From positions 1 through 50,433 of the forward strand of contig JAHBWH010000044.1 in assembly GCA_019637115.1 (NCBI GenBank): a stretch of 50,433 nt of DNA, given 5' to 3'. The stretch is from Myxococcales bacterium. GTDB taxonomy: Bacteria; Myxococcota_A; Polyangia; Polyangiales; Houyiibacteriaceae. Positions within the stretch are counted from its first letter, which is position 1. Each line of letters begins with the position of its first letter. Below are positions 19,904-41,513 of this stretch, one piece after another. Below the pieces are notes generated by a model. The model saw only the letters and a list, made by a program, of their open reading frames with translations. It was not told the DNA's origin and did no database searches. A program made the position numbers and the translations under genes.

Positions 19904-21061
19904 ATGCAGGCGAGCGCGCCGGGCAAGATGATGGTCTCCGGCGAGTACGCGGTGCTCGAGGGCGCGCCCGCGATCGTCATGGCCGCGCAGACCCGCGGCG
20001 TCGTGCGGCTCGAGGGGTCGCCGCGGGCGCTCGAGCACGTCGCCGCGGGCCTCGAGGCGCCGACGCCGCGTTATCCGGAGGCGGCGCACGCGCGCCGGCA
20101 GGCGGAGCGACGCCTCGGCGTCGTCCCGGGGGCGCTCGTGGTCGACGTCTCGGCGCTGCGCCGGGATGGCCAGAAGCTCGGGCTCGGATCGAGCGCGGCC
20201 ACCGCCGCGGCGTCGGCGGCGCTCGTGCATGCGTGGCATGGGCGCGACCTCGACGACCCGCGCGTGCGAGACGAGGTCTTCGAGGACGCCTACCTCGGGC
20301 ATATGTCGGTGGCCCCGCAGGGCAGCGGCGCCGACGTCGCGGCCGCGGTGCTCGGTGGCGTCGTGCGCTTCCAGCGCGGGGCCTACGCGAGCGCGACCTC
20401 CGGCGCGCCGTCGGACGAAGCCTCCATGGCGCTGACCTCCGCGACGCAGGTGGCCGACACGGCGCCGACCCCGGCGCAGGTAACCGACACGGCGCCGATC
20501 TCGGCGCAGCCGAAAACGGCGCCGACCTCGGCGCGTGCGGGTGGCGCTCTTACGCGCGCTGGCTCGAGCGGTGAGGCCGCCCGCACGGCGCCGCTGGTCT
20601 GGCCTGCGGGGCTCATCGTACGCGTCGCGTGGACGGGCCAGGCCGCGAGCACGGCGGCGCTCGTCGCGCAGGTGAAGGCCCTGGCGGCGTCCTCGCCCGC
20701 CCGGCATCGCGCGGCGATGGACGCGCTCGCGGCCGAGGCAGAGGCCTTCGTCGTGGCGTTCGCGCAGGACGCGCGCGCCGTCGTCGAGGCGGCTGGCCGC
20801 TACCACGACGCGATGGCGGCGCTCGGAGCGGCCGCGGGCGCCCCCATCGTCGAGGCCCGGCTCGAGCAGGTCGCGGCGCTCGCGGCGGCCACCGGGGGTC
20901 GCGCGAAGCCGAGCGGCGCAGGAGGCGGCGACGTCGCGCTCGCCTTCTTCGCGGGCGACGAAGACGCAGCGGCTTTCGCCGCGCGTTGCGCGCGCGAGGG
21001 GGTCGAGGTGCTCGCGCTCGAGCTCGGCGGCCCCGGCGCGCGGGTCGACCGCGTCGACTGA
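19904..21061 (+). CDS. Phosphomevalonate kinase (GHMP family) with a repeat insertion
   Basis: A 385-residue GHMP kinase that by position and motifs converts phosphomevalonate to diphosphomevalonate. N-terminal SAPGKMMVSGEYAVLEGAPA, ATP loop KLGLGSSAATAAASAAL, and C-terminal GRAKPSGAGGGDVALAFFAG are the three GHMP motifs of the ERG8-type enzyme. About residues 180-225 are a low-complexity insert with the recurring pattern DTAPTPAQ/DTAPISAQ/KTAPTSAR, coded by a short tandem repeat, probably a disordered surface loop. ATG 19904 is used because motif 1 follows at once; GTG 19880 would add eight residues. The last codons and stop lie in a 43-bp tandem repeat. It is the third gene of the mevalonate operon. 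Confidence 0.9.
   Translation: MQASAPGKMMVSGEYAVLEGAPAIVMAAQTRGVVRLEGSPRALEHVAAGLEAPTPRYPEAAHARRQAERRLGVVPGALVVDVSALRRDGQKLGLGSSAATAAASAALVHAWHGRDLDDPRVRDEVFEDAYLGHMSVAPQGSGADVAAAVLGGVVRFQRGAYASATSGAPSDEASMALTSATQVADTAPTPAQVTDTAPISAQPKTAPTSARAGGALTRAGSSGEAARTAPLVWPAGLIVRVAWTGQAASTAALVAQVKALAASSPARHRAAMDALAAEAEAFVVAFAQDARAVVEAAGRYHDAMAALGAAAGAPIVEARLEQVAALAAATGGRAKPSGAGGGDVALAFFAGDEDAAAFAARCAREGVEVLALELGGPGARVDRVD
20454..20535 (+). repeat. Imperfect tandem repeat inside the phosphomevalonate kinase gene
   Basis: The motif CCGACACGGCGCCGA occurs at 20454 and 20484 (30-bp period), with a decayed third copy at about 20510. It encodes the DTAPxxAQ repeats, stays in frame and interrupts the kinase domain between conserved blocks. 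Confidence 0.75.
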
Positions 21062-21169
21062 CGCGGTTCGCGGCCCCGGCGCGCGGGTCGACCGCGTCGA
21101 CTGACGCGGTTCGCGGCCCCGGCGCGCGGGTCGACCGCGTCGACTGACGCGGTTCGCGGCCCCGGCGCG
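21027..21169. repeat. 43-bp tandem repeat, 3.3 copies, carrying the phosphomevalonate kinase stop
   Basis: The unit starts GCGGCCCCGGCGCGCGGGTC and recurs at 21027, 21070, 21113 and, truncated, 21156, always with a 43-bp period. The first three are virtually identical. The first copy encodes the last 11 residues and stop of the kinase (GGPGARVDRVD); the others are noncoding copies with the same TGA. Because 43 is not a multiple of three, the copies are in different frames. Confidence 0.93.
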
Positions 21170-21212
21170 TGGGGCGGCGCGGGGCACAGCCCCTGCTACA
21201 CCGCCGCTCCTC

Positions 21213-22076
21213 ATGGGCTCCTCACGCGATCGCGTCGTCGGAACCGCGCTCGTCCTTCTGGCCGCGAGCTCGTGGGGCACGTGGAGCTTGTGGCTCCGGC
21301 CGACCGGGCTGCCGAGCGAGGTCACGACGCCCGTCCTCTTCCTCGCGATGGCGATCGGCGCGTGGCCCCTCGCGCTGCGCGAGCGGACGCCGCGCTGGTC
21401 GAAGCGGACGCTGCTGCTGCTGCTCGCGTTCGGCGTCTCCGACGCCATCAACGTCGGCACCTTCTTCGCGGCGATGAACGTGACCACGGTGGCGATCGCG
21501 GTCCTCACGCACTACGCCGCGCCCGTCCTCGTCGCGCTCCTCGCCCCGCGCATCGACGGAGTCCACGTGCCCCACGCGAAGCTCGCCGCGCTCCTCGCGC
21601 TCGTCGGGCTCACGATCGTGCTGCAGCCCTGGCGCGAGCTCGAAGGCGACGTCGTGCTCGGCGCGACGCTCGGGCTCGCCAGCGCCTTCGCCTATGCGAG
21701 CAACGTCTTCCTCGCCCGCCGCCTCACCGAGGACCTCGGCGCCAGCCGCACCTTGGGCCTGCACTCCGTCGTCGCGGCGCTCTTGCTCTTGCCGCTCGCG
21801 GGGTCGCGCATGCTCGACATCGACGCCGCGGCGATCCCCTATCTCGCGATCGGCTGCGTCGGGCCGGGGCTCCTCGCCGGGCTCGCGTTCTTCCGCGCGC
21901 TCACCCTCATCGGCGCCGCGCGCGCCTCGATCCTCGCGTTCGTCGAACCGCTCGTGGCCTGCCTCGTCGGCTGGCTCGCGTGGGACGAGCCGCTCGGCTG
22001 GAGCGTCGTGGTCGGCGGCGCGCTGGTGATCGCCGCCGGGGTGCTCGTCGTGGCCCCTCGCACCCCCGATCGGTAG
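21213..22076 (+). CDS. EamA/DMT-superfamily transporter
   Basis: A 287-residue integral membrane protein with ten predicted helices arranged as two EamA-type repeats. The first starts VVGTALVLLAASSWGTWSLW and contains NVGTFFAAMNVTTVAIAVLTHYAAPVLVALL. The second contains LGLASAFAYASNVFLARRL and ends with ASILAFVEPLVACLVGWLAW and GGALVIAAGVLVV. The family exports amino acids, metabolites or drugs; the substrate here is unknown. The ATG at 21213 directly follows the duplicated 3' end of the mevalonate operon, so its promoter must lie in or beyond the 43-bp repeats, or it is read through from the operon. Confidence 0.87.
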   Translation: MGSSRDRVVGTALVLLAASSWGTWSLWLRPTGLPSEVTTPVLFLAMAIGAWPLALRERTPRWSKRTLLLLLAFGVSDAINVGTFFAAMNVTTVAIAVLTHYAAPVLVALLAPRIDGVHVPHAKLAALLALVGLTIVLQPWRELEGDVVLGATLGLASAFAYASNVFLARRLTEDLGASRTLGLHSVVAALLLLPLAGSRMLDIDAAAIPYLAIGCVGPGLLAGLAFFRALTLIGAARASILAFVEPLVACLVGWLAWDEPLGWSVVVGGALVIAAGVLVVAPRTPDR

Positions 22077-22332
22077 TCCGCTCCGGAGGCTGCCGTGGAC
22101 GATCGGCGTGGAGGTCGTTTGCGCCAGGGCGACGCCGTCGCGCGTGGGTGTGCAGATGGGAGGCCGACGAAGAATGGGCACGCGAGGAGGTCGGCGAGTG
22201 AGATCCGCGTCGAGGACCACGGATCACTCCCGCGAAGTCGACTCCTCGTCCGCGTGAGGCCGCGGGACGAGACACGATGCCGATCCTTCGACGCACCAAT
22301 CCTCCGGTCGTACGTGGCATCATCGGTCGCCG

Positions 22333-23379
22333 ATGGTCGAGACGCGCGTGCATCGTTGCCAGTTCTGTGCGGCCCCGCTGGAGCGCTCGGACGAACGAGA
22401 GCGGCTCGTTCGATGCCGATACTGCGGCCGGCAGAACGAGCTCGCGGGGGGCGCGTCGCCGCTGGAGCTCCCGGACGAGGCGGCGCCCCCGGCCCCCACC
22501 AAGCCCTCGAGCCCGTGGATCGCGGTCGCGGTGCTCGCGGTCGCGGCGATTGGGGTCGGCGTCGGGCTCTCGTCGATGGAGGATCAGCGCTCGGGCGGGT
22601 CGCGTCCCCCCTCGCTCGACGGGCCCTTCTCGATGAGCTGGGCGGACGACACCCGGATCGTCGTGGACGGCAAGGACGACGTGTACGCGCGCGTGTCGCT
22701 CTTCGAGGGGCACTACCAGATCACCTTCCACCAGTTCCCGGTGGGCACGCGCTGGGCGGTCGGCGAGCGCCGCGGGATCCTCGACAGCGACATCTACGCG
22801 ATCGTCAGGCTCGGGAGCATCGAGGACGAGCTCGGCGCGGTGCCGGTCGCGCGCTTCCGGAACCACGCGGTCGGACCGACCGAGACGCTCGAGGTGCAGA
22901 TCCCCTCGGGGCATCAGGCGACCATCGCGCTCCGGCCGTTGCCCGTCGGGTACACCTTGCGCCAGACCCTCCAGGGCATCGAGAACGGGCCGGTGCGCTT
23001 CGAGCCCGAGCCCGCGCGCGGCGAACGCAACAGCGTCGCCCTGCTCGAGACGGCGGGTCTGAAGGTCTTCGGCCCTGCCCAGACGATGCGCGACGTCGAC
23101 CAGCTCGCCGTCGTCCGCGTGCTCCCCGAGCTGCACGGCGAGAAGCGCTGCGGCGGACAGGACGCGCGCGGGCGCCCGCTGCCCGAGGTCACGCTCCGGC
23201 TGAAGGAGACCGAGGTCATCGTCTATGACCGCCGCACGGGCGACGTCGCCGAGCGGCGCGTCTTCCCGCCCGACGATCGCTGCCCGACCCTCGCGCTCTC
23301 GGCGTCGCGCGACGCGCGGGACACCTACCCGCCCACGCGCGACATCGAGGCGTGGCTCGCGACGCTCGTCCGTCGGTAG
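22333..23379 (+). CDS. Zinc-ribbon membrane-anchored protein of unknown function
   Basis: A 348-residue protein with an N-terminal zinc ribbon (CQFCAAPL...CRYCGRQN; two CxxC pairs at about residues 9-12 and 28-31), a Pro-rich linker, one membrane helix (about residues 62-80, WIAVAVLAVAAIGVGVGL) and a ~265-residue outer domain of unknown fold with an Asp/Val-rich beta pattern (DDTRIVVDGKDDVYARVSLF, HYQITFHQFPVGTRWAVGE). The orientation suggests a cytoplasmic ribbon and an external domain. No enzyme motif is seen. ATG 22333 is supported by the immediate ribbon. The gap 22077-22332 shows nothing convincing. A strong hairpin separates it from the next, convergent gene. Confidence 0.75.
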   Translation: MVETRVHRCQFCAAPLERSDERERLVRCRYCGRQNELAGGASPLELPDEAAPPAPTKPSSPWIAVAVLAVAAIGVGVGLSSMEDQRSGGSRPPSLDGPFSMSWADDTRIVVDGKDDVYARVSLFEGHYQITFHQFPVGTRWAVGERRGILDSDIYAIVRLGSIEDELGAVPVARFRNHAVGPTETLEVQIPSGHQATIALRPLPVGYTLRQTLQGIENGPVRFEPEPARGERNSVALLETAGLKVFGPAQTMRDVDQLAVVRVLPELHGEKRCGGQDARGRPLPEVTLRLKETEVIVYDRRTGDVAERRVFPPDDRCPTLALSASRDARDTYPPTRDIEAWLATLVRR

Positions 23380-23467
23380 CGTCGAGCCGCTCAGCGCGAC
23401 GCCGCGCGACACGCGCGCGCGTCGACACGCACCCGCCGGGCTCAGGGCGCGGGGGCGCGAAATAGCG

Positions 23468-23501
23468 CCGAAGGGCGCGCCGTCGCCAGCGCGCCCTTCG
23501 G
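23468..23501. terminator. Bidirectional terminator hairpin
   Basis: CCGAAGGGCGCG (23468-23479) pairs perfectly with CGCGCCCTTCGG (23490-23501) across a 10-base loop, a 12-bp stem between the convergent stops at 23379 and 23533. Confidence 0.82.
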
Positions 23502-23532
23502 GGGTTGATGTCGCCTCGAGGCGACTGCTCGA

Positions 23533-24918
23533 TCAGCGGCGGCGGCGGAGCGCCATGCCGACGAAGAGCCCGAGCACGAGCAGCGAGGGCAGGCCGCTCC
23601 GGCCCGGCGTGCTGCAGCCGCAGCCGCCCGAGTCCTCCTCGGTCCCGCCAGCGTCGACGCCGACGCCGCCATCCGCGGGCGTCGACGCGTCGGTGGTGAT
23701 CGCGGCATCCGGCGGCACGCTCGCGTCCGCGGGCACGCTCGCGTCCTCGTCGACGCCCGCGTCCTCCTCGACGCCACCGTCCATCGGGCCGCCGTCGACG
23801 CCCGCGTCGCCCACGCCGCCGTCCTCACCGGGCGCGATCGTCTGGCAGGTCGCCGAGCAGGTCTCGCCGGGCGGATCACACTCCTCGCCCTCGGCCTCTT
23901 GGACGATGCTGTCGCCGCAGTACGGGCCCATGAGCTCGATCTCCTCGCAGTCGGTGTTGCAGCCGGTGCAGGTCATCGTGCCGTAGTCGCAGGCGGTGCG
24001 CGGGGTGTCGCCCTCGTCGCACTGTTCGTCGGGCGTGTCGACGGTGCCGTCGCCACAGACGCCCCCCATCAGCTCGAGCTCCATCGAGCAGTCGGCGTTG
24101 CAGAGCGTGCAGGTCGCCTCGCCGTAGGGGCAGGCCGTCTCGGTGACCGTGTTGCCGTCGTCGCAGACGTCGCCTTCGGAGATGATGCCGTTGCCGCAGC
24201 GGGTGGTGGCGATGACGAGGTTGTCGATGGCGAGCGCGTCGCGGCTGCCGCTGCCAGTCGCATCATCCGTACTCCAAACGAGCTCGACCGTCGCGCCGTC
24301 AGCGATGGGGGTCGCGTCGAGGTCGAGGGTCGCTCGCACGGTCTGACGCGTCCAGGTCACGGGGGCGGGGTCCGCCTCCGCTGGGGTCACCGTCGAGAAG
24401 ATCTCGGCCGAATCGTCACCCACACGAAGCTCCGCGACGAACGCCTGACCGCGCGGCTGATTGTTGAAAACGAGGAAGTCGAAGCTCACGTCGAGCGACG
24501 TGATCGGCGCGCCCGTCCCGTTCGTGAACCGGAAATGAATGGTGCCTGGAGTAAAGAGCGGACCAGTGGGCTTGATGCCAAGAGCGAAGTCGTCGGTTCC
24601 GACCACATAGGCGTAAACTCCCCCGCTGGTTCGAGACCCAGGATCGGTACGCTGGCCTAGGACGCCAGCCGGCGCGGCAGCCGGCATCGTGTAGACCACT
24701 GTGTCGCCGAAGTCGGAAGTACTCTCTGCGCTCCCGCCATCGAAGCGCCACTCGTCGGAGTCGAGACGCCCATCCGTTCCGCCCGGGTCCAGGCCGGTCC
24801 CCCGGTAGGCCGAGAAGTCTTCCTCGATGACGCCGTCCGCGGTGAGGCTGCGCTGCGCGAGCGCGGGGGCCGATGTGAGCGCCAGGAGGGCGCAGACCAA
24901 GAGGTAACGTGATCGCAT
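23533..24918 (-). CDS. Secreted DUF4215 Cys-rich protein with a MYXO-CTERM-like anchor
   Basis: A 461-residue secreted protein. Signal peptide MRSRYLLVCALLALTSAPALA is followed by a ~210-residue jelly-roll-like domain (starting EEDFSAYRGTGLDPGG). Then come three DUF4215-type Cys modules: CGNGIISEGDVCDDGNTVTE, CGDGTVDTPDEQCDEGDTP and CGDSIVQEAEGEECDPPGET. An Asp/Ala/Val-rich spacer (DAGVDGG, DASVPADAS) leads to the sorting tail GGCGCSTPGRSGLPSLL, a hydrophobic helix and RRRR. The tail matches the MYXO-CTERM pattern (Gly-Cys-x-Cys, helix, Arg cluster), which directs surface anchoring or release in Myxococcota. ATG 24918 begins the signal peptide. The binding partner is unknown. The bidirectional hairpin lies just after its stop. 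Confidence 0.9.
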   Translation of the reverse strand: MRSRYLLVCALLALTSAPALAQRSLTADGVIEEDFSAYRGTGLDPGGTDGRLDSDEWRFDGGSAESTSDFGDTVVYTMPAAAPAGVLGQRTDPGSRTSGGVYAYVVGTDDFALGIKPTGPLFTPGTIHFRFTNGTGAPITSLDVSFDFLVFNNQPRGQAFVAELRVGDDSAEIFSTVTPAEADPAPVTWTRQTVRATLDLDATPIADGATVELVWSTDDATGSGSRDALAIDNLVIATTRCGNGIISEGDVCDDGNTVTETACPYGEATCTLCNADCSMELELMGGVCGDGTVDTPDEQCDEGDTPRTACDYGTMTCTGCNTDCEEIELMGPYCGDSIVQEAEGEECDPPGETCSATCQTIAPGEDGGVGDAGVDGGPMDGGVEEDAGVDEDASVPADASVPPDAAITTDASTPADGGVGVDAGGTEEDSGGCGCSTPGRSGLPSLLVLGLFVGMALRRRR

Positions 24919-25559
24919 GTCGCCGGAGGGTACCACGGCGAGCCACGTTCGGTTCCCGGGCGCGGGGCGCGTGACAGAAGCGTCACTCTCCGCGCGGGCG
25001 GTCTTTGGTTGCCGCGTACGTGTTCACCCTCCGGGCCTTTGGGGGTGGTTGATGCGGGAGCTCTCGCGCGGACGGCGAGGCGCCGTGGCGCCCCGCCAAC
25101 CGCGATGCCTCGACACGCCTCCTTGGCCGCCGTGGTTTCGCGCCTCGTGGGACCGAGAGCGCAGCGAGTCCAACGACCGCGATCGGCACCGGGGGCCCGA
25201 ACGCCCATCGAACGGATAAGCGTGTCCTCCCCGCCCTAAGCCATGCTGAGATGAGATCCAATCGTCCAACGTGGCGACGTGGGCTGGACGCGGTGTCGGT
25301 GCCTGACGTTTGGACAGCAAGAACTCGGACTCCGACTCGGAGTCCGACCCGGACTCGTACCCGAGGGGTCAGGCGGGATTCGAGGGTCAGGCGGCGGGGT
25401 CGCGGGAAGGCTCGAGCGGGGGCTGGAGGGAGCGGGGACTGGTGGAGCGGAGTGGGACCTGGAAGTTGTGGCGGAAGCGGGGCAGCAGGAGCGGAGCGGG
25501 CGGAGCTTGGGGGCAGGGGCAGGGGCAGGGGCAGGGGCAGGGGACGGGTTTTGCTGCTT
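24919..25559. other. 641-base intergenic region with hairpin and hexanucleotide array
   Basis: No believable gene is present. It contains a perfect hairpin GGACTCCG-ACT-CGGAGTCC at 25328-25346 inside an (ACTCGG/ACTCCG)-like run (25320-25370), and a G-rich tract from about 25370 that ends in a (GGGGCA)5 array. The part next to 24918 should carry the promoter of the MYXO-CTERM gene (-), but no clear element is seen. Confidence 0.55.
25510..25539. repeat. (GGGGCA)5 hexanucleotide array
   Basis: Five perfect GGGGCA units lie 21 bases past the stop of the aldehyde dehydrogenase gene. Read on the other strand this is (CCCCTG)n, the same family as the arrays at 42502 and 48528. Confidence 0.9.
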
Positions 25560-26987
25560 TCACGGGCCCAAACAAACGTACTTCACCTCCGTCCACTCCT
25601 CCATCCCGTGCCGGCTCCCTTCGCGGCCCAGGCCGCTCTCCTTCACGCCTCCGAAGGGGGCGACCGCCGTCGAGACGAGGCCCGTTCCGACGCCCACCAT
25701 GCCGACCTCGAGCGCCTCCGCCACGCGGAAGACGCGACCGACGTCGCGCGCGTAGAAGTACGCCGCCAGACCCGCTGGGGTGTCGTTCGCGAGCGCGATT
25801 GCCTCCTCCTCCGTGTCGAAGGCCATCACGCCCAGCGCCGGGCCGAAGGTCTCCTCGTTCGCCATGCGCATCTCCGTCGTCACGCCCGTCAGGAGCGTCG
25901 GCGCATAGAACGTCCGCCCGAGCTCGTGCGCCGACCCGCCGAGGTGCAGCGTCGCGCCCTTCGCGCGCGCGTCGTCCACGTGGCCCGCGACCTTGTCGAA
26001 GCTCGGTCGGTTCACGAGCGGCCCGAGCGCGACGCCCTCCTCGAGCCCCGGCCCGACCCTCACCCCCCGAAGCCGCGCCGCGACCCTCTCGACGAAGGCG
26101 TCGTGCACGCTCCGCTGCACGAGGATGCGGTTGGCCGCGACGCAGGTCTGCCCACCATTGCGGAGCTTCGCCACCATCAACCCGTCCGCCGCGGCGTCGA
26201 GGTCCGCGTCGTCGAAGACGAGGAAGGGCGCGTTCCCGCCGAGCTCGAGCGAGACCTTCTTCACGGTGTCCGCGCAGGCGCGGTAGAGCCGCTTGCCCAC
26301 CGCCGTGCTCCCCGTGAAGCTCAGCGCGCGGACCCGCGCGTCCCCCGTGAGGACCTCGCCGACCGGCGCCGCCTCGGAGGTAGGGACCACGTTCACGACG
26401 CCCTTCGGGACACCGGCCTCCTCGCAGAGCGCGGCGAGCGCGAGCGCCGAGAGCGGCGTGAGCTCCGAGGGCTTGAGCACGAAGGTGCAGCCCGCCGCGA
26501 GCGCGGGCGCGAGCTTTCGCGCGATCATCGCCGACGGGAAGTTCCACGGCGTGATGGCCGCGCCGACCCCGATCGGCTGCCGGAACGTGAGCAGGCGGTG
26601 ACCCGGGAAAGGCGAGGGGATCGTCTCGCCGTGCGGGCGCAGGGCTTCTTCGGCGAAGAACTCGTAGAAGCTCGCGGCGTAGCGGATCTCGCCCCTGGCC
26701 TCGGCGAGGGGCTTGCCCTGCTCGCGCGTGAGCAGGCGCGCGAGCTCGTCCTCGCGCTCGGCGTGGAGCGCGCGGAGGCGACGCACCACGCCGGCGCGCT
26801 CGTGCGCGGTCTTCGCGCGCCACGCGGGCCAAGCGTCCGCGGCGGCGTCGACGGCCTGACGCGTGAGCGCGGCGTCCGCGTCGCTCACGTCGGCGAGGTG
26901 CTCACCCGTGGCGGGATCGGTGACGGCGAAGCGGCGGTCGGTGGCGATCCACTCGCCGCCCACGTAGGCGCGGTCTCGAGGCGTCAT
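25560..26987 (-). CDS. gabD: NAD(P)-dependent succinate-semialdehyde dehydrogenase-like aldehyde dehydrogenase
   Basis: A 475-residue aldehyde dehydrogenase oxidising an aldehyde to the acid, most like the GabD/SSADH group. Motifs: ITPWNFPSAMIARKLAPALA (cofactor-binding Trp-Asn), LKPSELTPLSALAL, FTGSTAVGKRL, ELGGNAPFLVFDDADLD with the general-base Glu, GGQTCVAANR with the catalytic Cys (about residue 275), and C-terminal NEETFGPALGV and FGGVKESGLGREGSRHGMEE. The last block with Arg-Glu-Gly-Ser is typical of SSADH, which oxidises succinate semialdehyde from the GABA shunt. ATG 26987. No partner gene (a GABA transaminase) is nearby, so the physiological substrate stays uncertain. Confidence 0.88.
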   Translation of the reverse strand: MTPRDRAYVGGEWIATDRRFAVTDPATGEHLADVSDADAALTRQAVDAAADAWPAWRAKTAHERAGVVRRLRALHAEREDELARLLTREQGKPLAEARGEIRYAASFYEFFAEEALRPHGETIPSPFPGHRLLTFRQPIGVGAAITPWNFPSAMIARKLAPALAAGCTFVLKPSELTPLSALALAALCEEAGVPKGVVNVVPTSEAAPVGEVLTGDARVRALSFTGSTAVGKRLYRACADTVKKVSLELGGNAPFLVFDDADLDAAADGLMVAKLRNGGQTCVAANRILVQRSVHDAFVERVAARLRGVRVGPGLEEGVALGPLVNRPSFDKVAGHVDDARAKGATLHLGGSAHELGRTFYAPTLLTGVTTEMRMANEETFGPALGVMAFDTEEEAIALANDTPAGLAAYFYARDVGRVFRVAEALEVGMVGVGTGLVSTAVAPFGGVKESGLGREGSRHGMEEWTEVKYVCLGP

Positions 26988-27033
26988 ACGCTCCGCTTAG
27001 CGCGAACGCGCCGGCGATGAAACGGGCTCGCGC

Positions 27034-27198: not shown

Positions 27199-27205
27199 TC
27201 CCTAT

Positions 27206-32743: not shown

Positions 32744-34927
32744 ATGCGTAGAATTTTGCACTTGATGGTGAGCCTCGCCCTCTGCAGCGCGCTCGGCTGC
32801 GGCGATGACGACGTGACCACCGACGGCGGAGTCGACGGCGGCGTCGATGGCGGACGAGACGGCGGCCCCGACCTCGACTCGGACGTCATGCCCGATGCCG
32901 ACACCGACGCGGACGTCGTGCCCGACGCCGACACCGACGGCGGCCCGGTCGACGGCGGCCCCATCCCCGACGCCGGAATCGAGGGCGTCCGCGCGGCGAC
33001 GCCGGGCGGCCACGACCCCGCGATCGTCGTCGAGGAGGTCGTCGTCACCTACGTGCGCCCGGCGCTCGGCGCCGACCCGGCGGGCTTCTTCGTGCAGGCG
33101 GGCCCGACGGGCCCGGCGGTCTTCGTCGCCATCGACCCCGAGACGCTCGATCCGGTCCCGGCGCCCGGCGACACCGTGGACTTCGAGGTCACGACGACCG
33201 CGCGCGCGAGCGGTATGCTCCACGTCACGGCGATCACGGGCTACGCCCGCACGGGCACCGGCGCCGACCTCGCCCCGCTCGTGCAGGATCTCTCGGACGC
33301 GGCCGACCTCCTCAGCGCGACCGAGAGCTACGAAAGCGAGTACGTCGTCGTGACGGCCACGCTCGCCGGCGCCGACGTCGCCGCGGGCGGCGGCCACCGC
33401 GCCTTCCCGCTCGACACCGCCGGTGTGTCGGGCGAAGCCGACGTCCAGCTCCGCTTGGCGCCGGGTCTGCTCGAAGAGCTCGGGCTCGAGGCGGGCTGCG
33501 TGGTCACCGTGGGCCCCTCGCCCCTCTGGCGCTTCGCGACAGCGGCCGTCAACCGGCCGCAGTTCATGGGGTACCGCGCGAGCGACGTCACGATCACCTC
33601 GTGCCCGGCGCCGACGGTCACGGGCGCGAGCTCGAACGGCGAGACCGTACGGGTGAGCTTCAGCCGCCCCCTCGACGAAGCGACGGTCGAGGCCAGCGAC
33701 TTCGCGATCACCGGCGGCACGGGCACGGTCGAGGTGACGGCGGTCGCCTTCGACGGCAGCGACGTCATCCTGACGGTGACGGGGCTCGAACCGGAAACCG
33801 ACTACACGGTCGCCGTGACCAACGTTGCGGACCTCCTCGGCGGCTTCATCGACGGGGTGCGAAACACCGCCACGTTCGCGACTCCCGCTCGGCCCGTCGT
33901 GCCAGCCGTCTTCGGGGACATCATCGTCTCCGAGATGTTCTACGGACCCACGCCCACCTGGTTCGAACTCCACAACCCGAGCGACGTAAGCTATCAGCTC
34001 GAAGGTTGTGTGGTGCGCGGAACCAACGGCTCGACGACAATCACGACATCTCTACTGGTCGAGCCATTGGGATACGTTGTCTTTGGCGAGGCAGGATCCG
34101 CGGCCGGCGCTGGGCCTGACTTCGAGATTTCCTTCGGGCTTGGTCACGAGGACGACGTCGTCGAGCTGGATTGTGGTGGCGTAACGATCGAGCGAATCTC
34201 ATACCATGTTGGCGAATCCGGGTGGCCTGTATTCGTCGATGGAGCCTCCGTTCAGCTCGACCAGCTTTCGTTCTTGGGTGACCGCAACAGCGGGTCCAAT
34301 TGGTGTTCTGCGCCGTCGTATCGAACGTTTGGTGCGGACTCACACCTCGGAACGCCAGGCGAGTCGAACGTTTCATGCGGAGCATACCTCGCATTCTCCG
34401 AGTACGTCTACGGAACGAGCAATAATAAGGCGCTCGAGGTGGCGAACCTTGGAAGCGCGCCAAGAAGCCTTGCCGGATGCTCGATCCGTCGATATTCCAA
34501 TGGTACGACCACCCCCACGTCAATCCCTCTCGCCACAGAGCGAACGTTGCTCCCTGGGGAGACATGGGCGGTCTGCAACTCGTCGTTGACTGGGGCAGCC
34601 ACGATCTGTGACCAGCTCGCGAATCAAGTGAACCACAATGGCGACGATGCCTACGACCTGGTCTGCGGAGACGTCCTCTTTGACGTCATCGGGCGGATCG
34701 GCGAGCAACCTTCCAACGGCTTCTGGCCTCGTCCCGAGGTGAACGCCGCGCCGACCGCGACCACCGGACGTGGCGTCATCCGCCGTCGATGCGTGTCCAC
34801 GCTGGGACGAACGGCTCCGATGTCTGACTTCGACCCGTCGGCCGAGTGGGTTCAAGCGGCCCCTGCTGCGGCCCCCGACGTATTCGGCGACCTGGGTCAA
34901 AACTATATGTGCCACCTGACTTTCTGA
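32744..34927 (+). CDS. Lipoprotein with lamin-tail-like domains
   Basis: A 727-residue lipoprotein: signal MRRILHLMVSLALCSALGC with lipobox ALGC, then an Asp/Gly-rich linker with VDGGVDGGRDGG and PDADTDADVVPDADTD repeats (residues ~25-75). Next come a beta-rich domain, an Ig/Big-like domain (VTGASSNGETVRVSFSRPLD...LEPETDYTVAVTN) and two lamin-tail-like domains (DIIVSEMFYGPTPTWFELHN and LAFSEYVYGTSNNKALEVAN). Lamin-tail domains occur in secreted nucleases and surface proteins; no catalytic domain is seen here. GGGAGACG precedes ATG 32744. DNA from about 33950 onwards is clearly less GC-rich than the first half, so the gene looks mosaic. It is a candidate target of the divergent response regulator. 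Confidence 0.85.
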   Translation: MRRILHLMVSLALCSALGCGDDDVTTDGGVDGGVDGGRDGGPDLDSDVMPDADTDADVVPDADTDGGPVDGGPIPDAGIEGVRAATPGGHDPAIVVEEVVVTYVRPALGADPAGFFVQAGPTGPAVFVAIDPETLDPVPAPGDTVDFEVTTTARASGMLHVTAITGYARTGTGADLAPLVQDLSDAADLLSATESYESEYVVVTATLAGADVAAGGGHRAFPLDTAGVSGEADVQLRLAPGLLEELGLEAGCVVTVGPSPLWRFATAAVNRPQFMGYRASDVTITSCPAPTVTGASSNGETVRVSFSRPLDEATVEASDFAITGGTGTVEVTAVAFDGSDVILTVTGLEPETDYTVAVTNVADLLGGFIDGVRNTATFATPARPVVPAVFGDIIVSEMFYGPTPTWFELHNPSDVSYQLEGCVVRGTNGSTTITTSLLVEPLGYVVFGEAGSAAGAGPDFEISFGLGHEDDVVELDCGGVTIERISYHVGESGWPVFVDGASVQLDQLSFLGDRNSGSNWCSAPSYRTFGADSHLGTPGESNVSCGAYLAFSEYVYGTSNNKALEVANLGSAPRSLAGCSIRRYSNGTTTPTSIPLATERTLLPGETWAVCNSSLTGAATICDQLANQVNHNGDDAYDLVCGDVLFDVIGRIGEQPSNGFWPRPEVNAAPTATTGRGVIRRRCVSTLGRTAPMSDFDPSAEWVQAAPAAAPDVFGDLGQNYMCHLTF

Positions 34928-34997
34928 AGAATTCGGGCAACTCGCGTGTCGGCCGGCCGAGCAGAAGCTGGACCCTCACTGCGGGAGCAACATCGTC

Positions 34998-36554
34998 ATG
35001 GTAAAAAAACAGCTATGCTACGCCATTGTCATCGCCACTGCGTCGGCGTGCAGTACTCTTCCAAGCAACCCATGTGGGGAGTTGATCCGCGTGGGAGGGC
35101 GATGTGTCTGCCCGCCAGGTACGGTCGCGGTCGATGATTGGGTGTGCGAACGAGAGGACGGAACGAGGATCGTCTCGCCAGAAGCACCTGACGGCTACGC
35201 AGCGTCGCCGCCGGATGGTGGTTTGGTACAACCGGACTCGGGTCTGGCGTCCGACTCTGACGCGGGCAACAGTTCGAGGGACTCGGGTGTGTCGGACGAC
35301 GCTTCGGATGATTGCCGCCATGATGTAGAGTGCGAGGATTCGCTGTGGTGCACATCGAGCGCGTGCGTTGCGGGTCAGTGTGTCAGTGTCCCAATCGCGG
35401 ATGCGTGCTTGATCGACGGAGAGTGCTGGCGTTCAGGTTCATTGAGGGACGATGGGTGCGCGACATGTCAGCCATCGACCTCGCCGACCGAGTGGCGGGA
35501 GGAATCCACCGCGGTTCGATTGTCTACGGAGATCTTCCACACGTGTACCATTCGTTCAGACCGTACGCTCTGGTGTTGGGGATGGAACGTCGACGGGGGT
35601 CTGGGCCTCGGAGATCGCGACATGAGGGAGTTGCCGACTCAGGTGGGCACGGACGAAGACTGGGTCGAGATCAGTGCAGGGACTCACTCGTGCGGAATCA
35701 AGGCCGATAGAAGTCTGTGGTGCTGGGGGCGCAACGACCGAGGGCAACTGGGCCTAGGCGATCGGGAGATGCGGCTGGTGCCGGTCCGAGTGGGAACCCA
35801 GCGATGGGCCAGCGTCAGCGTCGGAGCAACGTCGACGTGTGGGATTCGCTCCGAAGGAACGCTTTGGTGTTGGGGCGACAACACGTACGGCCAGCTTGGC
35901 CACCTCCCTAGTGCATCCGTCGTCACGAGCCCACAGCGCGTCGGGAGCCTTTCCGGTTGGTCTGTCGTGAGCGCAGCAGAGTATGCTCACGCATGCGGGA
36001 TCCGGACGGACGGAAGTATGTGGTGCTGGGGAGGAAACTCCGTGGGACAACTGGGCGTAGGCGACACTGAGCCGCGTGTCGGCCAAGTTCGAGTGAATCC
36101 CGATGTGACGTACTTGTCAGTGTCGGTAGGTGCGATTCATTCGTGTGCGATCCGCGGAGACCAATGGATGGAGTGTTGGGGCCAGAACCAAGATGGTAGT
36201 TTGGGAGTCGGTGATGGCGAAGACAGAGTGAGTCCCACCGTCGTGGCGACTGTGACGTGGGCGTCCGTATCCGCGGGGATGAACTTCACGTGTGGGCTGC
36301 GCACCGAAGGTAGCCTGTGGTGCTGGGGCTCTAACGCCGATCAGGCGTTAGGAACCAGTGACACCGACGACCGGGTTCAGCCTGCGCGAGTGGGGGTTGG
36401 CACGGACTGGGAGGCCGTGGATGGAGGGAGCGGCCATACATGTGGAATCGCTTCGGGACGCGTCTTGTGCTGGGGTCTTGGGGACTTCGGCGTCCACGGT
36501 GTCGTGCCGGAGGCGACAAGGAATACGCCCGCTCCCACGAGCTGCGTCTGGTGA
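34998..36554 (+). CDS. RCC1-repeat lipoprotein
   Basis: A 518-residue lipoprotein: MVKKQLCYAIVIATASACST with lipobox ASAC, a Cys-rich segment (CGELIRVGGRCVCPPGT), a Ser/Asp-rich linker, a second Cys-rich segment (residues ~105-165) and then seven RCC1-like blades. The blades carry the hallmark CxIRxDxxLWCWGxNxxGQLG, for example TLWCWGWNVDGGLGLGD, SLWCWGRNDRGQLGLGD and SMWCWGGNSVGQLGVGD, predicting a beta-propeller with a Cys pair in each blade. The function is unknown; probably surface display and protein binding. Codon use is relaxed (many A/T third positions) and unlike most of the window, suggesting recent acquisition together with the end of the preceding gene. A hairpin follows the stop. 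Confidence 0.88.
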   Translation: MVKKQLCYAIVIATASACSTLPSNPCGELIRVGGRCVCPPGTVAVDDWVCEREDGTRIVSPEAPDGYAASPPDGGLVQPDSGLASDSDAGNSSRDSGVSDDASDDCRHDVECEDSLWCTSSACVAGQCVSVPIADACLIDGECWRSGSLRDDGCATCQPSTSPTEWREESTAVRLSTEIFHTCTIRSDRTLWCWGWNVDGGLGLGDRDMRELPTQVGTDEDWVEISAGTHSCGIKADRSLWCWGRNDRGQLGLGDREMRLVPVRVGTQRWASVSVGATSTCGIRSEGTLWCWGDNTYGQLGHLPSASVVTSPQRVGSLSGWSVVSAAEYAHACGIRTDGSMWCWGGNSVGQLGVGDTEPRVGQVRVNPDVTYLSVSVGAIHSCAIRGDQWMECWGQNQDGSLGVGDGEDRVSPTVVATVTWASVSAGMNFTCGLRTEGSLWCWGSNADQALGTSDTDDRVQPARVGVGTDWEAVDGGSGHTCGIASGRVLCWGLGDFGVHGVVPEATRNTPAPTSCVW

Positions 36555-36626
36555 GGTCCCGGCTCTTCGACAGCGGGCCAGTGACGTGCGCCAGACGCAA
36601 TGCGTCCGGCATCGCACGGAGCGTAC

Positions 36627-36650
36627 CGGAGCCGATGATTGTCGGCTCCG
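36627..36650 (+). terminator. Terminator hairpin after the RCC1 lipoprotein gene
   Basis: CGGAGCCGA (36627-36635) pairs with TCGGCTCCG (36642-36650) across the loop TGATTG, a 9-bp stem 73 bases after the stop at 36554. A smaller stem, GACGC-AAT-GCGTC, lies just before it. Confidence 0.7.
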
Positions 36651-36663
36651 CACGCCATCGGGA

Positions 36664-36844
36664 CTAGTGGTGCTCGGCGGATTTGGCGATCCCGTACCGG
36701 CGAGGATTCGGCGTCGCTCGGCGGTCCGAATCGACGAAGGACATGCAGAGCGTCTTAGAGGAGATAGGCCGAAGGCCGGTCGGGCCGGCGAGCGGCGCCG
36801 AGGACCGGCGAAAACGGGTCGTCAAATCCGCCGAGCACCACTAG
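36664..36844. mobile_element. MITE-like palindrome with ~31-bp terminal inverted repeats
   Basis: The left end (CTAGTGGTGCTCGGCGGATT from 36664) and right end (AATCCGCCGAGCACCACTAG to 36844) are perfect inverse copies over the outer 21 bases. They continue with few mismatches to about 36695 and 36814. The interior also pairs in part (CGGCGTCGCTCGG against CGAGCGGCGCCG). The ends are flush CTAG. No transposase is present. The right end stops one base before the stop codon of the acyl-CoA oxidase gene (36846). Its sequence differs from the element at 27034. Confidence 0.78.
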
Positions 36845-36845
36845 C

Positions 36846-39302
36846 TCAATCCGGGACGCGCGGTCGACGTCGGGCGGGGTCGCCGAACGCGATCGGCGCC
36901 GCGAGCGCGCGATCGGGCACGCCGAAGGCGTCGACGAGCCCCCGCGCGTCGGCTCGCAGCTCCAGGCAGAGCGCGTCGACGAGCTTCCGGATCGCGCGGA
37001 TCTTCGGGCCCTCGAAGAAGCCGTTCTCCAGGTACCAAGCCGCCTCTCGCTCGAGGCGCGAGAGCGCGAAGAGATCACGCAGCGCGACGAGGTGACGGGC
37101 CGGTCCGTCGGGGAGCTCGGCGCCCGCGATCACCTCGTCGAAGCTCTCGAGCACGAAGCGGTCGATGTGGGCCTCCGCCAACGCGACGAGGTGTGGCTGG
37201 ACCTCGATCATCGCTGCGTGCGGGTCCATCCCCTCGCCCAAGCGGCGCTGCAGGCGCCTCGCGACACCCGAGCGCAGGACGTCCGCGCGCGCCGCGAAGA
37301 GGTCGCGATGGTAGTCGGCGTCACGCAGATGACCTTCGTCCGCCCTGCGCGCGCGGAGCGGGCTCCGGTCGATCGCGCGCCCGGCCGCCTCGCGGACGAG
37401 GCGCAGGCTCGACAGCAGCCGCGACTCCTGGAACTGGCGGCGAAACGAGGTCAGCAGTCCACGGGCGACCAAGGAGAGCAACACCGTGTTGTCACCCTCG
37501 AAGGTCGCGAAGATGTCGGCGTCCCGGCGGAGCATCGCGATGCGGTTTTCGCTCAGGTAGCCCTGGCCACCGCAGCACTCGCGCGCGTGTTGGAGGGTCT
37601 CGATCGCGTGCCGGCTCGCGGCGGCCTTCAGCCCCGCGGCGAGCGTCTCGAGCTCTCGGGAGCCCTCCGCTTCCTTCGAGGGGCCGTCGGCCGCTCCCTG
37701 CGGGGCCCCCTCCCACGAGCCTACGCTCGCTTCGCTCGCTGCGCGCCGTCCAGCAGGGCGGCTTGCGAAGCCAGCTGAGAGCTTTGTTTCACCAGTGGCG
37801 TCGGCGGCGAGGTAGCGGCGTCGCGCTGCGTCCACCGCGAAGTGGTAGGCGTACGTGGTCGCGAGCGCGGGGAGGAGCCGGCGCTGGTGCGTTCGATAGT
37901 CGAGCAGCGGCGCCTCGGGGCGGCCTTCGGGTCCGAATTGTCGACGGGAGTCGCCGTAGCGCACCGCGACCGCGAGGCCGACCTTCGTCGCGCTCACCGA
38001 CGCCGCCGCCACCCCGAGGCGGCCGCCGACGAGCGTGCCCAACATCGTGAAGAAGCGCCGGGACGCGCTCGGGATCGGGCTCTCGTAGCGCCCCTCGGCG
38101 TCGACCTGCGCGTAGCGCGCCAGCAGGTTCTCGCGGGGCACCTCCACCTGGTCGAACCAGAGCCGACCGTTGTCCACGCCTTCGAGGCCCATCTTGGCGC
38201 CGTTGTCGACGACGCGGACGCCGGGCATGAGCTCGCCGGAGTCGTCGCGGATCGGCACGAAGAACGCATGGACGCCGTGCCACGCCTCGCCGACGCGGAG
38301 CTGCGCGAAGACGACGGCGTCGCGCCCGTGGCAGGCCGCGTTGCCGATCCATTCCTTTCGCGCCGACTCCGACGGCGTGTGGACGACGAAGGCGTCGCGC
38401 TCGGGCTCGTAGCGCGCGACGGTCTCGAGGGCCGCGACGTTCGACCCGTGGCCGAGCTCGCTCATGGCGAAGCAGCCCAGCCGCTCGCCCCGCGCGATCT
38501 CGGGCAACCAGCGCGCGCGCTGCGCGTCGTCGCCGAGGAAGTAGATCGCGCCGCCGAAGAGGCCGAACTGCACCCCCGTCTTCACCCAGACGCTGAGGTC
38601 GCCGAAGCCGAGCGTCTCGAACGCGACCATGAAGGCCTCGAGGTCCGGCTCGTCGGTGGTCACCCCCGGGTAGGCCCACCGCCCGAGGCCCGCGTCGGCG
38701 AGGGCGAGCACGCGCGCCTTCACGTGCTCGCGGTACGCGCCGCGCTCGAGGTCGAAGCTCGGCTCCGCGCCGGGCTCGTCGAGCAGCGCGCGGACGCGCG
38801 CCCTGACGTCCGCTCGGTGGCCGTCGAGGAGCTGGCGCAGGGCGAGGGCGCCTTCGCGCACCTCGGTCGCGAAGTCCGGGAGGGGCTCCTCCTCGCCGAG
38901 CTCGAAGAAGCAGGCGGTGGCCTCGGGGCCATGGAGCCCGAGGGCTTCCTCGATCGACTCGAGCGCGTCGCGGACGTCGGCATCGCGCGCCTCGTCGTCC
39001 GCGCCCCGCCGCGCCATCGCCTCTCCGAGCGCGGCGAGCGACCGCCGCTCGTGGGGATCCAAGGTGCCCGCGCTCTCGCGCACGCGCGCGAGCAGCGAGG
39101 CCAGCGCCTCCGCCGATGGCGGCGCGCTCGCGTCGAGCCAGGGCGCGAGCGCCTCCCGCGCGTCCGGGCCGAGCCACGGAAGCGACGCGACCTTCTGCTC
39201 GAGCAACGCGAGCTCGTCGGGCGCGAGGTCACCATCGGCCCACGCGACGTAGAGCAGCGGAAGAAAGGGCCTGACGTGCGGGTGGGCGAGTGCTTCCGTC
39301 AT
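36846..39302 (-). CDS. Acyl-CoA oxidase/dehydrogenase with N-terminal TerB-like domain
   Basis: An 818-residue protein. Residues ~8-130 resemble a TerB-like helical domain (LPLLYVAWADGDLAPDELALL...VASLPWLG). The remainder is an acyl-CoA oxidase-type flavoenzyme oxidising acyl-CoA to trans-2-enoyl-CoA: GVQFGLFGGAIYFLGDDAQR, CFAMSELGHGSNVAALET, GKMG-like KMGLEGVDNGRLWFDQVEVP, GGRLGVAAASVSATKVGLAV, RRQFGPEG, CCGGQGYLSENRI and TFEGDNTVLLSLVARGLL. About residues 511-542 are an Ala/Ser/Gly-rich insertion coded by a dispersed DNA repeat, placed between the helix ending YLAADATGETK and LETLAAGLKAAASRHA. The start is ATG 39302 with GGAGAC 6 bases upstream. Role: beta-oxidation; chain-length preference unknown. 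Confidence 0.9.
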   Translation of the reverse strand: MTEALAHPHVRPFLPLLYVAWADGDLAPDELALLEQKVASLPWLGPDAREALAPWLDASAPPSAEALASLLARVRESAGTLDPHERRSLAALGEAMARRGADDEARDADVRDALESIEEALGLHGPEATACFFELGEEEPLPDFATEVREGALALRQLLDGHRADVRARVRALLDEPGAEPSFDLERGAYREHVKARVLALADAGLGRWAYPGVTTDEPDLEAFMVAFETLGFGDLSVWVKTGVQFGLFGGAIYFLGDDAQRARWLPEIARGERLGCFAMSELGHGSNVAALETVARYEPERDAFVVHTPSESARKEWIGNAACHGRDAVVFAQLRVGEAWHGVHAFFVPIRDDSGELMPGVRVVDNGAKMGLEGVDNGRLWFDQVEVPRENLLARYAQVDAEGRYESPIPSASRRFFTMLGTLVGGRLGVAAASVSATKVGLAVAVRYGDSRRQFGPEGRPEAPLLDYRTHQRRLLPALATTYAYHFAVDAARRRYLAADATGETKLSAGFASRPAGRRAASEASVGSWEGAPQGAADGPSKEAEGSRELETLAAGLKAAASRHAIETLQHARECCGGQGYLSENRIAMLRRDADIFATFEGDNTVLLSLVARGLLTSFRRQFQESRLLSSLRLVREAAGRAIDRSPLRARRADEGHLRDADYHRDLFAARADVLRSGVARRLQRRLGEGMDPHAAMIEVQPHLVALAEAHIDRFVLESFDEVIAGAELPDGPARHLVALRDLFALSRLEREAAWYLENGFFEGPKIRAIRKLVDALCLELRADARGLVDAFGVPDRALAAPIAFGDPARRRPRVPD
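37678..37769. repeat. Dispersed structured repeat, copy 2 (inside the acyl-CoA oxidase gene)
   Basis: It shares with 27206-27318 the start GAGGGGC.GTCG, the block GCGGGGCCCCCTCCC, CGAGCCTACGCTCGCT, CGCTCGCTGCGCGCCGTCC and the end AGGGCGGCTTGC, with scattered substitutions and a shorter 5' part. Here it is read in frame on the minus strand as an Ala/Arg/Ser/Gly-rich peptide without stops. Confidence 0.85.
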
Positions 39303-39582
39303 CGTGGGTCTCCATGAGGCGCTCGAGTCATGCTCTGCGGCCGACAGACCCCTTCGTCGACGGGTCTCCGACTCCTGCCCACCTCGCCGGAGCCGAGGCG
39401 GGACGAGTCCCCCGCGAAAGTCTCGAAGAGCGTCTCCGTCGACTGCTAACATGCGCGCATGTCCGACGTCGACGAGCCGCGCACCAAGGCACCGACGGAG
39501 GCGTCCATCAACGCGTGAGCGATCACCTCGCGACGACTACGTTGAGGCCAAGCGCGAAGCCCGCGCCCGGGTCCATCTCGCG

Positions 39583-39999
39583 ATGATCGGCACGCTCCAC
39601 GCCCTCGGCATCCTCTTCACGGTCGTCGCCGCGCTCGGCTGCGCGATCCGTTGGCCTGCGCGTCCGACGTGGCGCCGAGGGCTCGCGTCGGCGCTCGTCG
39701 TCGTCCTCGGGGTGATGGTCGGGCTGCTCTCGCTGCACGGCTGCGACGCGGGATCGCCGCTGACGCAGTGGCTCGTCCCCACGCTGGCGGCCGTCGCGGC
39801 CGTGCTTTTCTGCGGCGCGCGTCGGCCGCGCGTCGTCGTCGTCGCGGCGTCCGTTGGTGTCGCCGTCGCGCTCTCGCTGCACTTCAACGTCGCGGTCCAC
39901 GGCCCCGCCTGGATCGGGAACCCCGACGCGCGCTCGCTGGAGGGCGCGGGTGTCTTCGCCGAGTGGCACACGCCGCTGACCGGGCTCTGGCGGCGCTGA
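39583..39999 (+). CDS. Small four-helix membrane protein, possible 5' frameshift
   Basis: A 138-residue protein with four hydrophobic segments (GTLHALGILFTVVAALGCAI, ASALVVVLGVMVGLLSLHGC, LVPTLAAVAAVLFCGA, VVVVAASVGVAVALSLHF) and a short C-terminal EWHTPLTGLWRR. I do not recognise the family. ATG 39583 is the first ATG next to the first helix. The open frame upstream gives a plausible cytoplasmic stretch DDYVEAKREARARVHLA, which could belong to the protein. A second frame starting at ATG 39459 (MSDVDEPRTKAPTEASINA) stops at 39518 just before it. A +1/-1 frameshift near 39515 would join them into one longer protein; this is inference. Confidence 0.6.
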   Translation: MIGTLHALGILFTVVAALGCAIRWPARPTWRRGLASALVVVLGVMVGLLSLHGCDAGSPLTQWLVPTLAAVAAVLFCGARRPRVVVVAASVGVAVALSLHFNVAVHGPAWIGNPDARSLEGAGVFAEWHTPLTGLWRR

Positions 40000-40109
40000 G
40001 CGGACCCCTCTCCTCCCTGCGGAGACTCGCGGGGGGGGCACAGTCCACGGCCTCGTCGACTTCACCGAACTTTACGGGACGCGCGATCACGCGGTGATAG
40101 GGTCCACTC

Positions 40110-40751
40110 ATGCCGAGGGGACTTCTCGCTGCGCTGATGATGGTCGGAGCATCCTGGGAGTCTGACCGCGTGCGCGCTCAATCGGAGCATCTCGGCGCTC
40201 CGAGGACGGAGGCAGCGGCGGATGTTCAGCCGGTCGCGTCGCCCGCGGCCGCCACCATCCCCGTCGCGGAGGAGGTGGCCCGGGACGACGTGCCGGCGCC
40301 CCCTCCTGCGTTCCGCGAGAGCGTCCCGTTCGTACCCAACGTGCGCATCACCACCGAGCCCGCGCGCTATTCGCGCTACGTCCTGCACCGCGCGGGCGTG
40401 CCGATCCCAGACGGGGCTCGGCTCGTTCAGCGGCGGCGCATGGAGCTCGTGGGCGCCGCCTTCGGGGTCTTCGCCATCGGCTACGTCGTGGGCACGATGG
40501 CCGCCTACGGCGCGAGCGAGAGTTGGCTCGGCCTCGTGCCGATCGCGGGGCCGCTCATCTGGCATGCCCAAGAGCGAAGCAACCTCTCCGGAGGGCTCGG
40601 CGTCGCGGCGGTCGTCACGCAGCTCGCGGGTCTGTTCGGGATCGGGATCGCGCTGCGCGGTCGATGGTACGTCCACACGCAGGACGGCGAACGTCCGGCG
40701 GTCGACTTCGTCGTCCACGGGACGTCCCTCGGACTGCGTGTGCGCATCTGA
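40110..40751 (+). CDS. Unknown exported/membrane protein
   Basis: A 213-residue protein with a weak N-terminal signal (MPRGLLAALMMVGASWE), an Ala/Pro-rich stretch to about residue 70, a segment FVPNVRITTEPARYSRYVLH, then two or three hydrophobic segments (LVGAAFGVFAIGYVVGTMAA, LGLVPIAGPLIW, LGVAAVVTQLAGLFGIGIAL) and the tail RWYVHTQDGERPAVDF ending GLRVRI. I do not recognise the family; similar signal + Pro-rich + two-helix proteins are frequent in myxobacterial genomes and usually called hypothetical. ATG 40110. Its last 30 codons plus stop are repeated almost perfectly directly downstream. Confidence 0.7.
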   Translation: MPRGLLAALMMVGASWESDRVRAQSEHLGAPRTEAAADVQPVASPAAATIPVAEEVARDDVPAPPPAFRESVPFVPNVRITTEPARYSRYVLHRAGVPIPDGARLVQRRRMELVGAAFGVFAIGYVVGTMAAYGASESWLGLVPIAGPLIWHAQERSNLSGGLGVAAVVTQLAGLFGIGIALRGRWYVHTQDGERPAVDFVVHGTSLGLRVRI

Positions 40752-40844
40752 CCGATGGCACGTCCACACGCAGGACGGCGAACGTCCGGCGGTCGACTTC
40801 GTCGTCCACGGGACGTCCCTTCGGACTGCGTGTGCGCATCTGAC
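40662..40844. repeat. 91-bp tandem duplication spanning the 3' end and stop
   Basis: Unit 1 is 40662-40752 and unit 2 is 40753-40844. They differ by one substitution (GGTACG to GGCACG) and one inserted T (TCCCTCGG to TCCCTTCGG). Unit 1 holds the last 30 codons and TGA of the preceding gene. Unit 2 is noncoding and ends 53 bases before the HD hydrolase start. Confidence 0.95.
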
Positions 40845-40897
40845 CGAAGGGAGGGTTCGGCGCCCACCGGCGTCGAACGAGCGCTACCCTGGCGGGC

Positions 40898-41335
40898 ATG
40901 TCGGATCTCGAACGGGCCATCGCCATCGCAGCCCAAGCGCACCGAGGCGTCGTCGACAAGGCGGGCGCGCCGTACATCCTCCATCCGCTGCGTGTGATGC
41001 TAGCGCAGACCACGAACGACGCGCGCATCGTGGGTGTGCTCCACGACGTGGTGGAGGACTCCGACTGGACCTTCGAAGCCCTGCGGGCAGAGGGTTTCTC
41101 CGAGCCCGTGCTCGAGGCGCTCGTGGCGGTGACGAAGACGCCCGAGGAGCATGGAAGCGAGGAGGGCTACGAGCGCTTCGTGCGGCGCGCGGCGGCCCAC
41201 CCGATCGGGCGCGCGGTGAAGCTCGCCGACCTGGAGGACAACGCGGATCTCTCGCGCATCGCGGCGCCGACCGTCGCGGATCACGCGCGCGTCGAGAAGT
41301 ACCGGCGCGCGATCGCCGCGCTCCGAGACCCGTGA
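40898..41335 (+). CDS. HD-domain phosphohydrolase, (p)ppGpp-hydrolase-like (MESH1/SAH type)
   Basis: A 145-residue single-domain protein. The metal-binding HD signature is present: His in AHRGVVDKAGAPYILHPLRV (His29 likely ligand), His49-Asp50 in GVLHDVVEDSDW with the Glu-Asp of the SpoT-type HDxxED motif, and Asp114-Asn115 in VKLADLEDNADLSR. This set and the length match small alarmone hydrolases and related RelA/SpoT HD proteins, which remove pyrophosphate from (p)ppGpp; other nucleotide substrates are possible. No synthetase or TGS domain is present. ATG 40898. The last ~32 codons plus stop are repeated twice downstream. Confidence 0.85.
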   Translation: MSDLERAIAIAAQAHRGVVDKAGAPYILHPLRVMLAQTTNDARIVGVLHDVVEDSDWTFEALRAEGFSEPVLEALVAVTKTPEEHGSEEGYERFVRRAAAHPIGRAVKLADLEDNADLSRIAAPTVADHARVEKYRRAIAALRDP

Positions 41336-41513
41336 CGAACGCGCGCCTCGCGGCGCCGACCGTCGCGGATCACGCACGCATCGAGAAGTACCGCGCGCGA
41401 TCGCCGCGCTCCGAGGGGCGTGACGAACGCGCGCCTCGCGGCGCCGACCGTCGCGGAACACGCAAAGGTCGAGAGGTACCGGCGCGGCTCAGCTCGCTCC
41501 GAGACGTGTGACG
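41240..41513. repeat. Three tandem copies of the HD-hydrolase 3' end
   Basis: Copy 1 (41240-41337, 98 bp) encodes the C-terminus from NADLSR to the stop and ends TGACG. Copy 2 (41338-41425, 88 bp) and copy 3 (41426-41513) each start AACGCGCGCCTCGCGGCGCC, run through CGACCGTCGCGGA and GTCGAGA/ATCGAGA.GTACCG, and end CTCCGAG..GTGACG. Copy 2 lacks about 10 bases of copy 1. Copy 3 is more diverged at its end. Confidence 0.93.

Follow-up and report, generated by a model that had tools for sequence, protein, structure and literature searches.

The question raised by this locus is why the last codons of several genes, together with their stop codons, are repeated downstream of the genes themselves, and whether such repeats point to a process that duplicates gene ends, to a function of the copies, or simply to places where duplications do no harm. 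The window, i.e., the whole stretch of 50,433 nucleotides that was analysed, is one of the 434 contigs of a draft genome that totals 8,880,847 bases. The sequence-only reading had described four gene tails, each copied head-to-tail with its stop codon, and this description holds for three of them. The first array follows a GHMP-kinase family gene resembling those of phosphomevalonate kinases (gene call, 19904–21061, plus strand; Pfam GHMP_kinases_N, E = 2.1e-06, run on 19880–21061), which is adjoined by a diphosphomevalonate decarboxylase gene. This array was located by Tandem Repeats Finder (TRF) and direct reading of the DNA at 21027–21173 on the plus strand (43 bp x 3.4, 99% matches), and its first copy comprises the last 35 coding bases, including the TGA stop at 21059–21061, with copied stops at 21102 and 21145. 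The second array, detected by TRF and verified by direct reading and alignment, lies at 40662–40847 (plus strand, 91 bp x 2.0, 97% matches), at the end of an orphan gene with no Pfam match (gene call, 40275–40751, plus strand; longest ORF 40110–40751). Its first copy corresponds to the last 90 coding bases including the TGA at 40749–40751, and the copied stop is found at 40841; the stop-to-stop spacing is therefore 92 and not 91, because the second copy carries one extra T. The third array belongs to an HD-domain gene (HD_4; 40898–41335, plus strand) whose Pfam match (E 1.4e-05, 25.3 bits) falls just under the curated cut-off of 27.2. It consists of 88 bp x 3.0 with 87% matches at 41253–41514 on the plus strand, as established by TRF, direct reading and alignment, and its first copy spans the final 83 coding bases including the TGA at 41333–41335, with copied stops at 41421 and 41509. 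The start of this array had previously been set at 41240, which TRF corrects to about 41253. In agreement with the earlier proposal that decay increases away from the gene, 80 of 89 alignment columns are identical between copies 1 and 2, against 72 of 90 between copies 1 and 3.

The fourth case, the AEC carrier gene (11639–12571, minus strand; Pfam Mem_trans, E 1.1e-21), is of a different kind. A diverged copy of its tail, with a TGA, was recognized by local alignment and direct reading at 11534–11602 on the minus strand, covering approximately the last 65 bases of the gene with small gaps, and the alignment score of 89 compares with a maximum of 33 in 500 shuffles. The tail copy is thus genuine, but it is gapped (the alignment contains two 2-base gaps) and is not adjacent head-to-tail; no array of period 105 was reported by TRF at this tail, and no likeness was apparent by eye between the 40 bases following the first stop and the 40 following the second. 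Moreover, the gene's stop at 11639–11641 and the copied TGA at 11534–11536 downstream are separated by 105 bp, which is a multiple of three. The assertion that the periods are not multiples of three consequently stands for the kinase, orphan and HD arrays, with stop spacings of 43, 92 and 88, respectively, and fails for the AEC copy.

The window arrays go beyond chance. When 438,170 real non-coding bases were scanned, 174 TRF rows of any period were obtained at a period of at least 25 and a score of at least 100 (overlapping rows counted separately), while one second-order Markov resample of the same bases yielded none at the same cut-offs. The distribution of such arrays was then counted in 68 contigs or contig parts of the window's own genome, mostly long contigs, amounting to 2,526,736 of its 8,880,847 bases and holding 1,737 genes called by a home-made codon-model finder. 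The main count comprised TRF arrays with a period of at least 25, a score of at least 100 and a period that is not a multiple of three; multiples of three were kept out because genes missed by the finder could place in-frame repeats among the intergenic arrays. An array was assigned to a 3′ or 5′ end when it contained at least 9 coding bases, and to the intergenic class when it overlapped a gene by fewer than 9 bases, if at all. Among the 79 arrays thus obtained, 56 were intergenic, 18 lay over a 3′ end only, one over a 5′ end only and four over both, and none was found inside a gene. Were arrays spread evenly over all positions at which no gene is cut, the expected numbers would be 58.2, 9.1, 9.6 and 2.1, respectively. 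These array counts are small, and the gene calls come from a home-made finder. The asymmetry between the two gene ends is strong (p = 1.9e-5). This count supersedes an earlier one on 1.88 Mb with a looser overlap rule, in which 16 of 57 arrays lay at 3′ ends and none at 5′ ends. Among the 137 arrays whose periods are multiples of three, 62 were in genes, 61 were intergenic, eight lay at 3′ ends (7.6 expected), five at 5′ ends (7.9 expected) and one at both, so that the asymmetry is weak in this class, to which in-frame repeats of coding sequence next to a wrongly placed start may contribute. A striking visual pattern has thereby become a counted one. The 22 stop-spanning arrays of the sample, with units of 26–125 bp and four of them also reaching a 5′ end, correspond to 0.44 per 50 kb, against three in the window; the Poisson chance of at least three is 0.010 per window. 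The sample should contain 0.5 such windows, and the present one was chosen for that very feature, so that its three arrays are not surprising.

It is very probable that the stop-spanning arrays have an ordinary origin, being duplications that survive where they are harmless, at the rate seen in convergent non-coding DNA. Small tandem duplications, from tens to about 130 bp, would arise at many places in this Myxococcota genome, presumably through replication slippage or recombination between short homologies. A duplication inside a gene would shift its frame and be lost, and one over a start codon or promoter would disturb expression and mostly be lost. A duplication over a stop codon, on the other hand, would leave the gene intact in its upstream copy and could therefore persist, decaying afterwards like other non-coding DNA. 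The asymmetry between stops and starts looks like the footprint of purifying selection, to which the scarcity of arrays over starts and within genes may be attributed, and stop-spanning duplications appear to behave as the least constrained non-coding DNA does.

A competing explanation is that gene 3′ ends are preferred sites of tandem duplication because of a process linked to transcription ends, such as stalled polymerase, R-loops or replication–transcription conflict. What distinguishes the two is the background against which the 18 arrays are set. When the whole of the intergenic DNA serves as the background, the enrichment of arrays at 3′ ends is 2.16-fold (95% interval 1.19–3.78, p = 0.008), which such a process would predict; the p value becomes 0.047 when the window's contig is left out and ranges from 0.0002 to 0.33 over ten settings, which differed in the period, score, overlap and identity required and in whether that contig was included. 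Pooled intergenic DNA includes the surroundings of promoters, and it is in convergent gaps that no neighbouring gene starts. In the gap analysis, 71 of the 79 arrays could be placed in a gap, and eight were unplaced owing to contig ends or N; three arrays spanned both gap ends. Per 10 kb of viable positions, convergent gaps held 3.03 arrays at 3′ ends and 2.73 in their intergenic part; tandem gaps held 2.85 at 3′ ends, none at 5′ ends and 1.05 in intergenic positions; and divergent gaps held 0.33 at 5′ ends and 1.29 in intergenic positions. Duplications that include a gene end are thus no commoner than those lying between two gene ends: the rate ratio is 1.07 (95% interval 0.50–2.37, p = 1.0), and across the ten settings it stayed between roughly 0.7 and 1.6, with p values of 0.32 to 1. 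The neutral account offered by the sequence-only reading is supported in this respect, the rate at 3′ ends not differing from that of convergent non-coding DNA and arrays being nearly absent over starts and inside genes. Arrays are enriched at 3′ ends relative to starts and to pooled intergenic DNA, with no clear excess relative to convergent intergenic DNA, and we infer that the pooled figure reflects a depletion of arrays near promoters. A process at transcription ends could also claim the convergent gaps, which are flanked by two gene ends and exceed the other gaps in arrays (p = 0.010), and if it acted throughout such gaps it would give an alike pattern. Array coverage, which is 2.6% over all non-coding DNA, can be read in both directions: it amounts to 2.3% in the first 25 nt after stops and 0.34% in the first 25 nt before starts, and it peaks at 5.6% at 100–125 nt after stops, above anything seen before starts, but it also climbs before starts to 4.0% at 200–225 nt, indicating that arrays lie away from starts and not only at stops. 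Furthermore, the stop has no preferred place within the unit. The three mostly coding cases of the window had hinted at one, and the stop positions in 21 arrays are compatible with a uniform distribution (p = 0.24; the one of the 22 left out has more coding bases than its period). A transcription-end process is not needed for the counts and is unlikely to be their source, even though 18 arrays leave room for a small real excess at 3′ ends, of at most about twofold. There is also a slim chance that, besides the purge at starts, transcription ends and convergent gaps act in this lineage as modest hotspots, where small tandem duplications arise up to about twice as often as in other non-coding DNA.

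Selection for the copies themselves, as spare stop codons or spare terminators, is extremely improbable. With the stop spacings given above, the nearest copy of the stop does not lie in the reading frame at any of the three window arrays, and the next in-frame stop is absent within 600 nt for the kinase gene and lies 243 nt away for the orphan gene and 447 nt away for the HD gene, i.e., beyond the array; spare in-frame stops are hence not provided by any of them. As for terminators, direct reading does show a 7-bp inverted repeat surrounding the stop in the 43-bp unit at 21027, and this unit is more stable on folding than 99% of 150 matched ends. However, duplication of an intrinsic terminator would place a stem-loop and a T run in each unit, and no terminator-like site was detected in 20800–21400 or 40500–41700 by a simple consensus based on T runs, a criterion perhaps ill-suited to a genome of 71% GC. 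The raw folding energy of the 22 stop-spanning units was higher than that of matched ends (p = 0.005), an excess that vanished when hairpins were scored against dinucleotide shuffles, the z-scores of the units then equalling those of random gene ends (p = 0.98); hairpins were rejected as a cause on this ground. The decay of the HD copies also argues against their being kept for use. It is, finally, highly unlikely that the arrays are artefacts of assembly or sequencing. The number of contigs in this draft and the near identity of the 43-bp copies are what such an origin would lead one to look for, and copy number could be wrong; nevertheless, substitutions and indels separate the copies of the 91- and 88-bp arrays and of the AEC tail, and arrays avoid starts and gene interiors, which would not be expected of assembly errors.

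Repeats of this kind have been described before, in Yersinia pestis. There, 10 of 88 VNTRs lie over ORF stops and six over starts, one of the latter being a CRISPR locus, and in the 24 VNTRs located inside ORFs the unit length is a multiple of three (PMC3689786). Its authors suggest that a change of copy number at a stop affects the ORF less, and that purifying selection is stronger on VNTRs less than 400 bp from the 5′ end, where diversity is lower (PMC3689786). As in the present genome, the stop of an ORF is found inside a tandem array; the difference is that 84.1% of the 88 Y. pestis loci have motifs of 7–21 bp and that diversity was drawn from 97 strains (PMC3689786), whereas the 22 stop-spanning arrays described here have the longer units given above and come from one draft genome. 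Head-to-tail copies that include the stop of the adjacent gene, which is the Y. pestis type of arrangement, are formed by the three window arrays and by the 22 arrays of the 2.53 Mb overall, and the AEC copy stands apart since it is not head-to-tail. The same text reports low diversity of the Y. pestis repeats at 3′ ends, read by its authors as possible constraint, and this is a point against full neutrality in that species (PMC3689786). In Mycobacterium tuberculosis, an array of the MIRU-VNTR type extends from 40 bp downstream of the rnc stop to the fpg1 start codon, and its length was tied by the authors to fpg1 expression (PMC2734929). An array can thus persist beside a start codon, and 5′ ends are not purged without exception. 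It resembles the present arrays in that its repeats measure tens of bp, are intergenic after a stop, and make up a long array in one species complex, whereas other species lack them; it differs in being a persisting 5′ array and in that MIRUs form a dispersed family (PMC2734929). Of the window arrays, the 43-bp and HD ones were searched, and neither unit recurs genome-wide in the manner of a dispersed MIRU-type family. A query of 1,001 bases over the 43-bp array gave, in the whole genome, 16 matches among the 40 of 1577 candidates scored, one of them the query's own locus and the other 15 short and weak (E values from 2.7e-5 to 6.2e-4), and the HD gene gave, in G000, three matches among the 18 of 838 candidates scored, namely itself and the two copies of its own array. 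We conclude that tandem repeats overlapping stop codons belong to a type already on record and can be explained in ordinary terms, and that repeated gene tails should not, taken alone, be read as evidence of function.

The age of the duplications was approached through relatives. The 37 genomes searched include one of the same genus, G001, which is another species, and no other strain of the window's species. In G001, the relative of the HD gene (85% identical protein, 86% identical DNA) ends without copies, and arrays are likewise missing around the ends of two remoter HD relatives, in G025 and G007. The HD duplication thus probably arose after the two species split, the alternative being a loss in G001. 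The AEC relative in G001 (54% identical) likewise has no array near its end, and no DNA match of more than 30 bases to the gene ending at 40751 was found in that genome. More broadly, 48 loci of relatives (228,707 bases; retained from 57 after removal of three duplicates and of six loci from records of other groups) contained two arrays at a score of at least 80, both intergenic, where the density of the window's own genome predicts about eight; these loci centre on query matches, and nothing is drawn from the figure. Relatives of both the kinase and the decarboxylase are present in G001, and small arrays of 15 bp x 3.7 and 19 bp x 2.5 lie downstream of its kinase gene; to judge by these sequences, arrays seem to have been acquired independently behind the kinase gene in the two species.

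A further tandem array, consisting of two copies of a 37-bp unit (47433-47507), was found in the gap 3′ of a TraB/PrgY/gumN-family gene encoded on the minus strand (47506-48483), and the stop codon of this gene overlaps the array by 2 bases. A hexanucleotide array, composed of 23.8 copies of GCCCAT with 97% matches (42501-42643), is flanked by a LysR-type regulator gene on the minus strand (41542-42471) and a hydroxyphenylpyruvate-dioxygenase-like gene on the plus strand (42909-43943). It is also overlapped by a weak short ORF on the minus strand (42462-42638), called by our home-made gene finder. Variation in the copy number of GCCCAT could alter spacing within a promoter region.

The right-hand end of the window holds a gene encoding a DotU domain, associated with type VI secretion (48978-50396), and the terminus itself is a run of 29 C (50404-50432), which looks like an artefact of sequencing or assembly where the contig ends.

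A relative of the window's mevalonate decarboxylase, sharing 47% identity with it, was found in a database record (L200) whose title gives it as a Klebsiella pneumoniae MAG; this label may therefore be incorrect.
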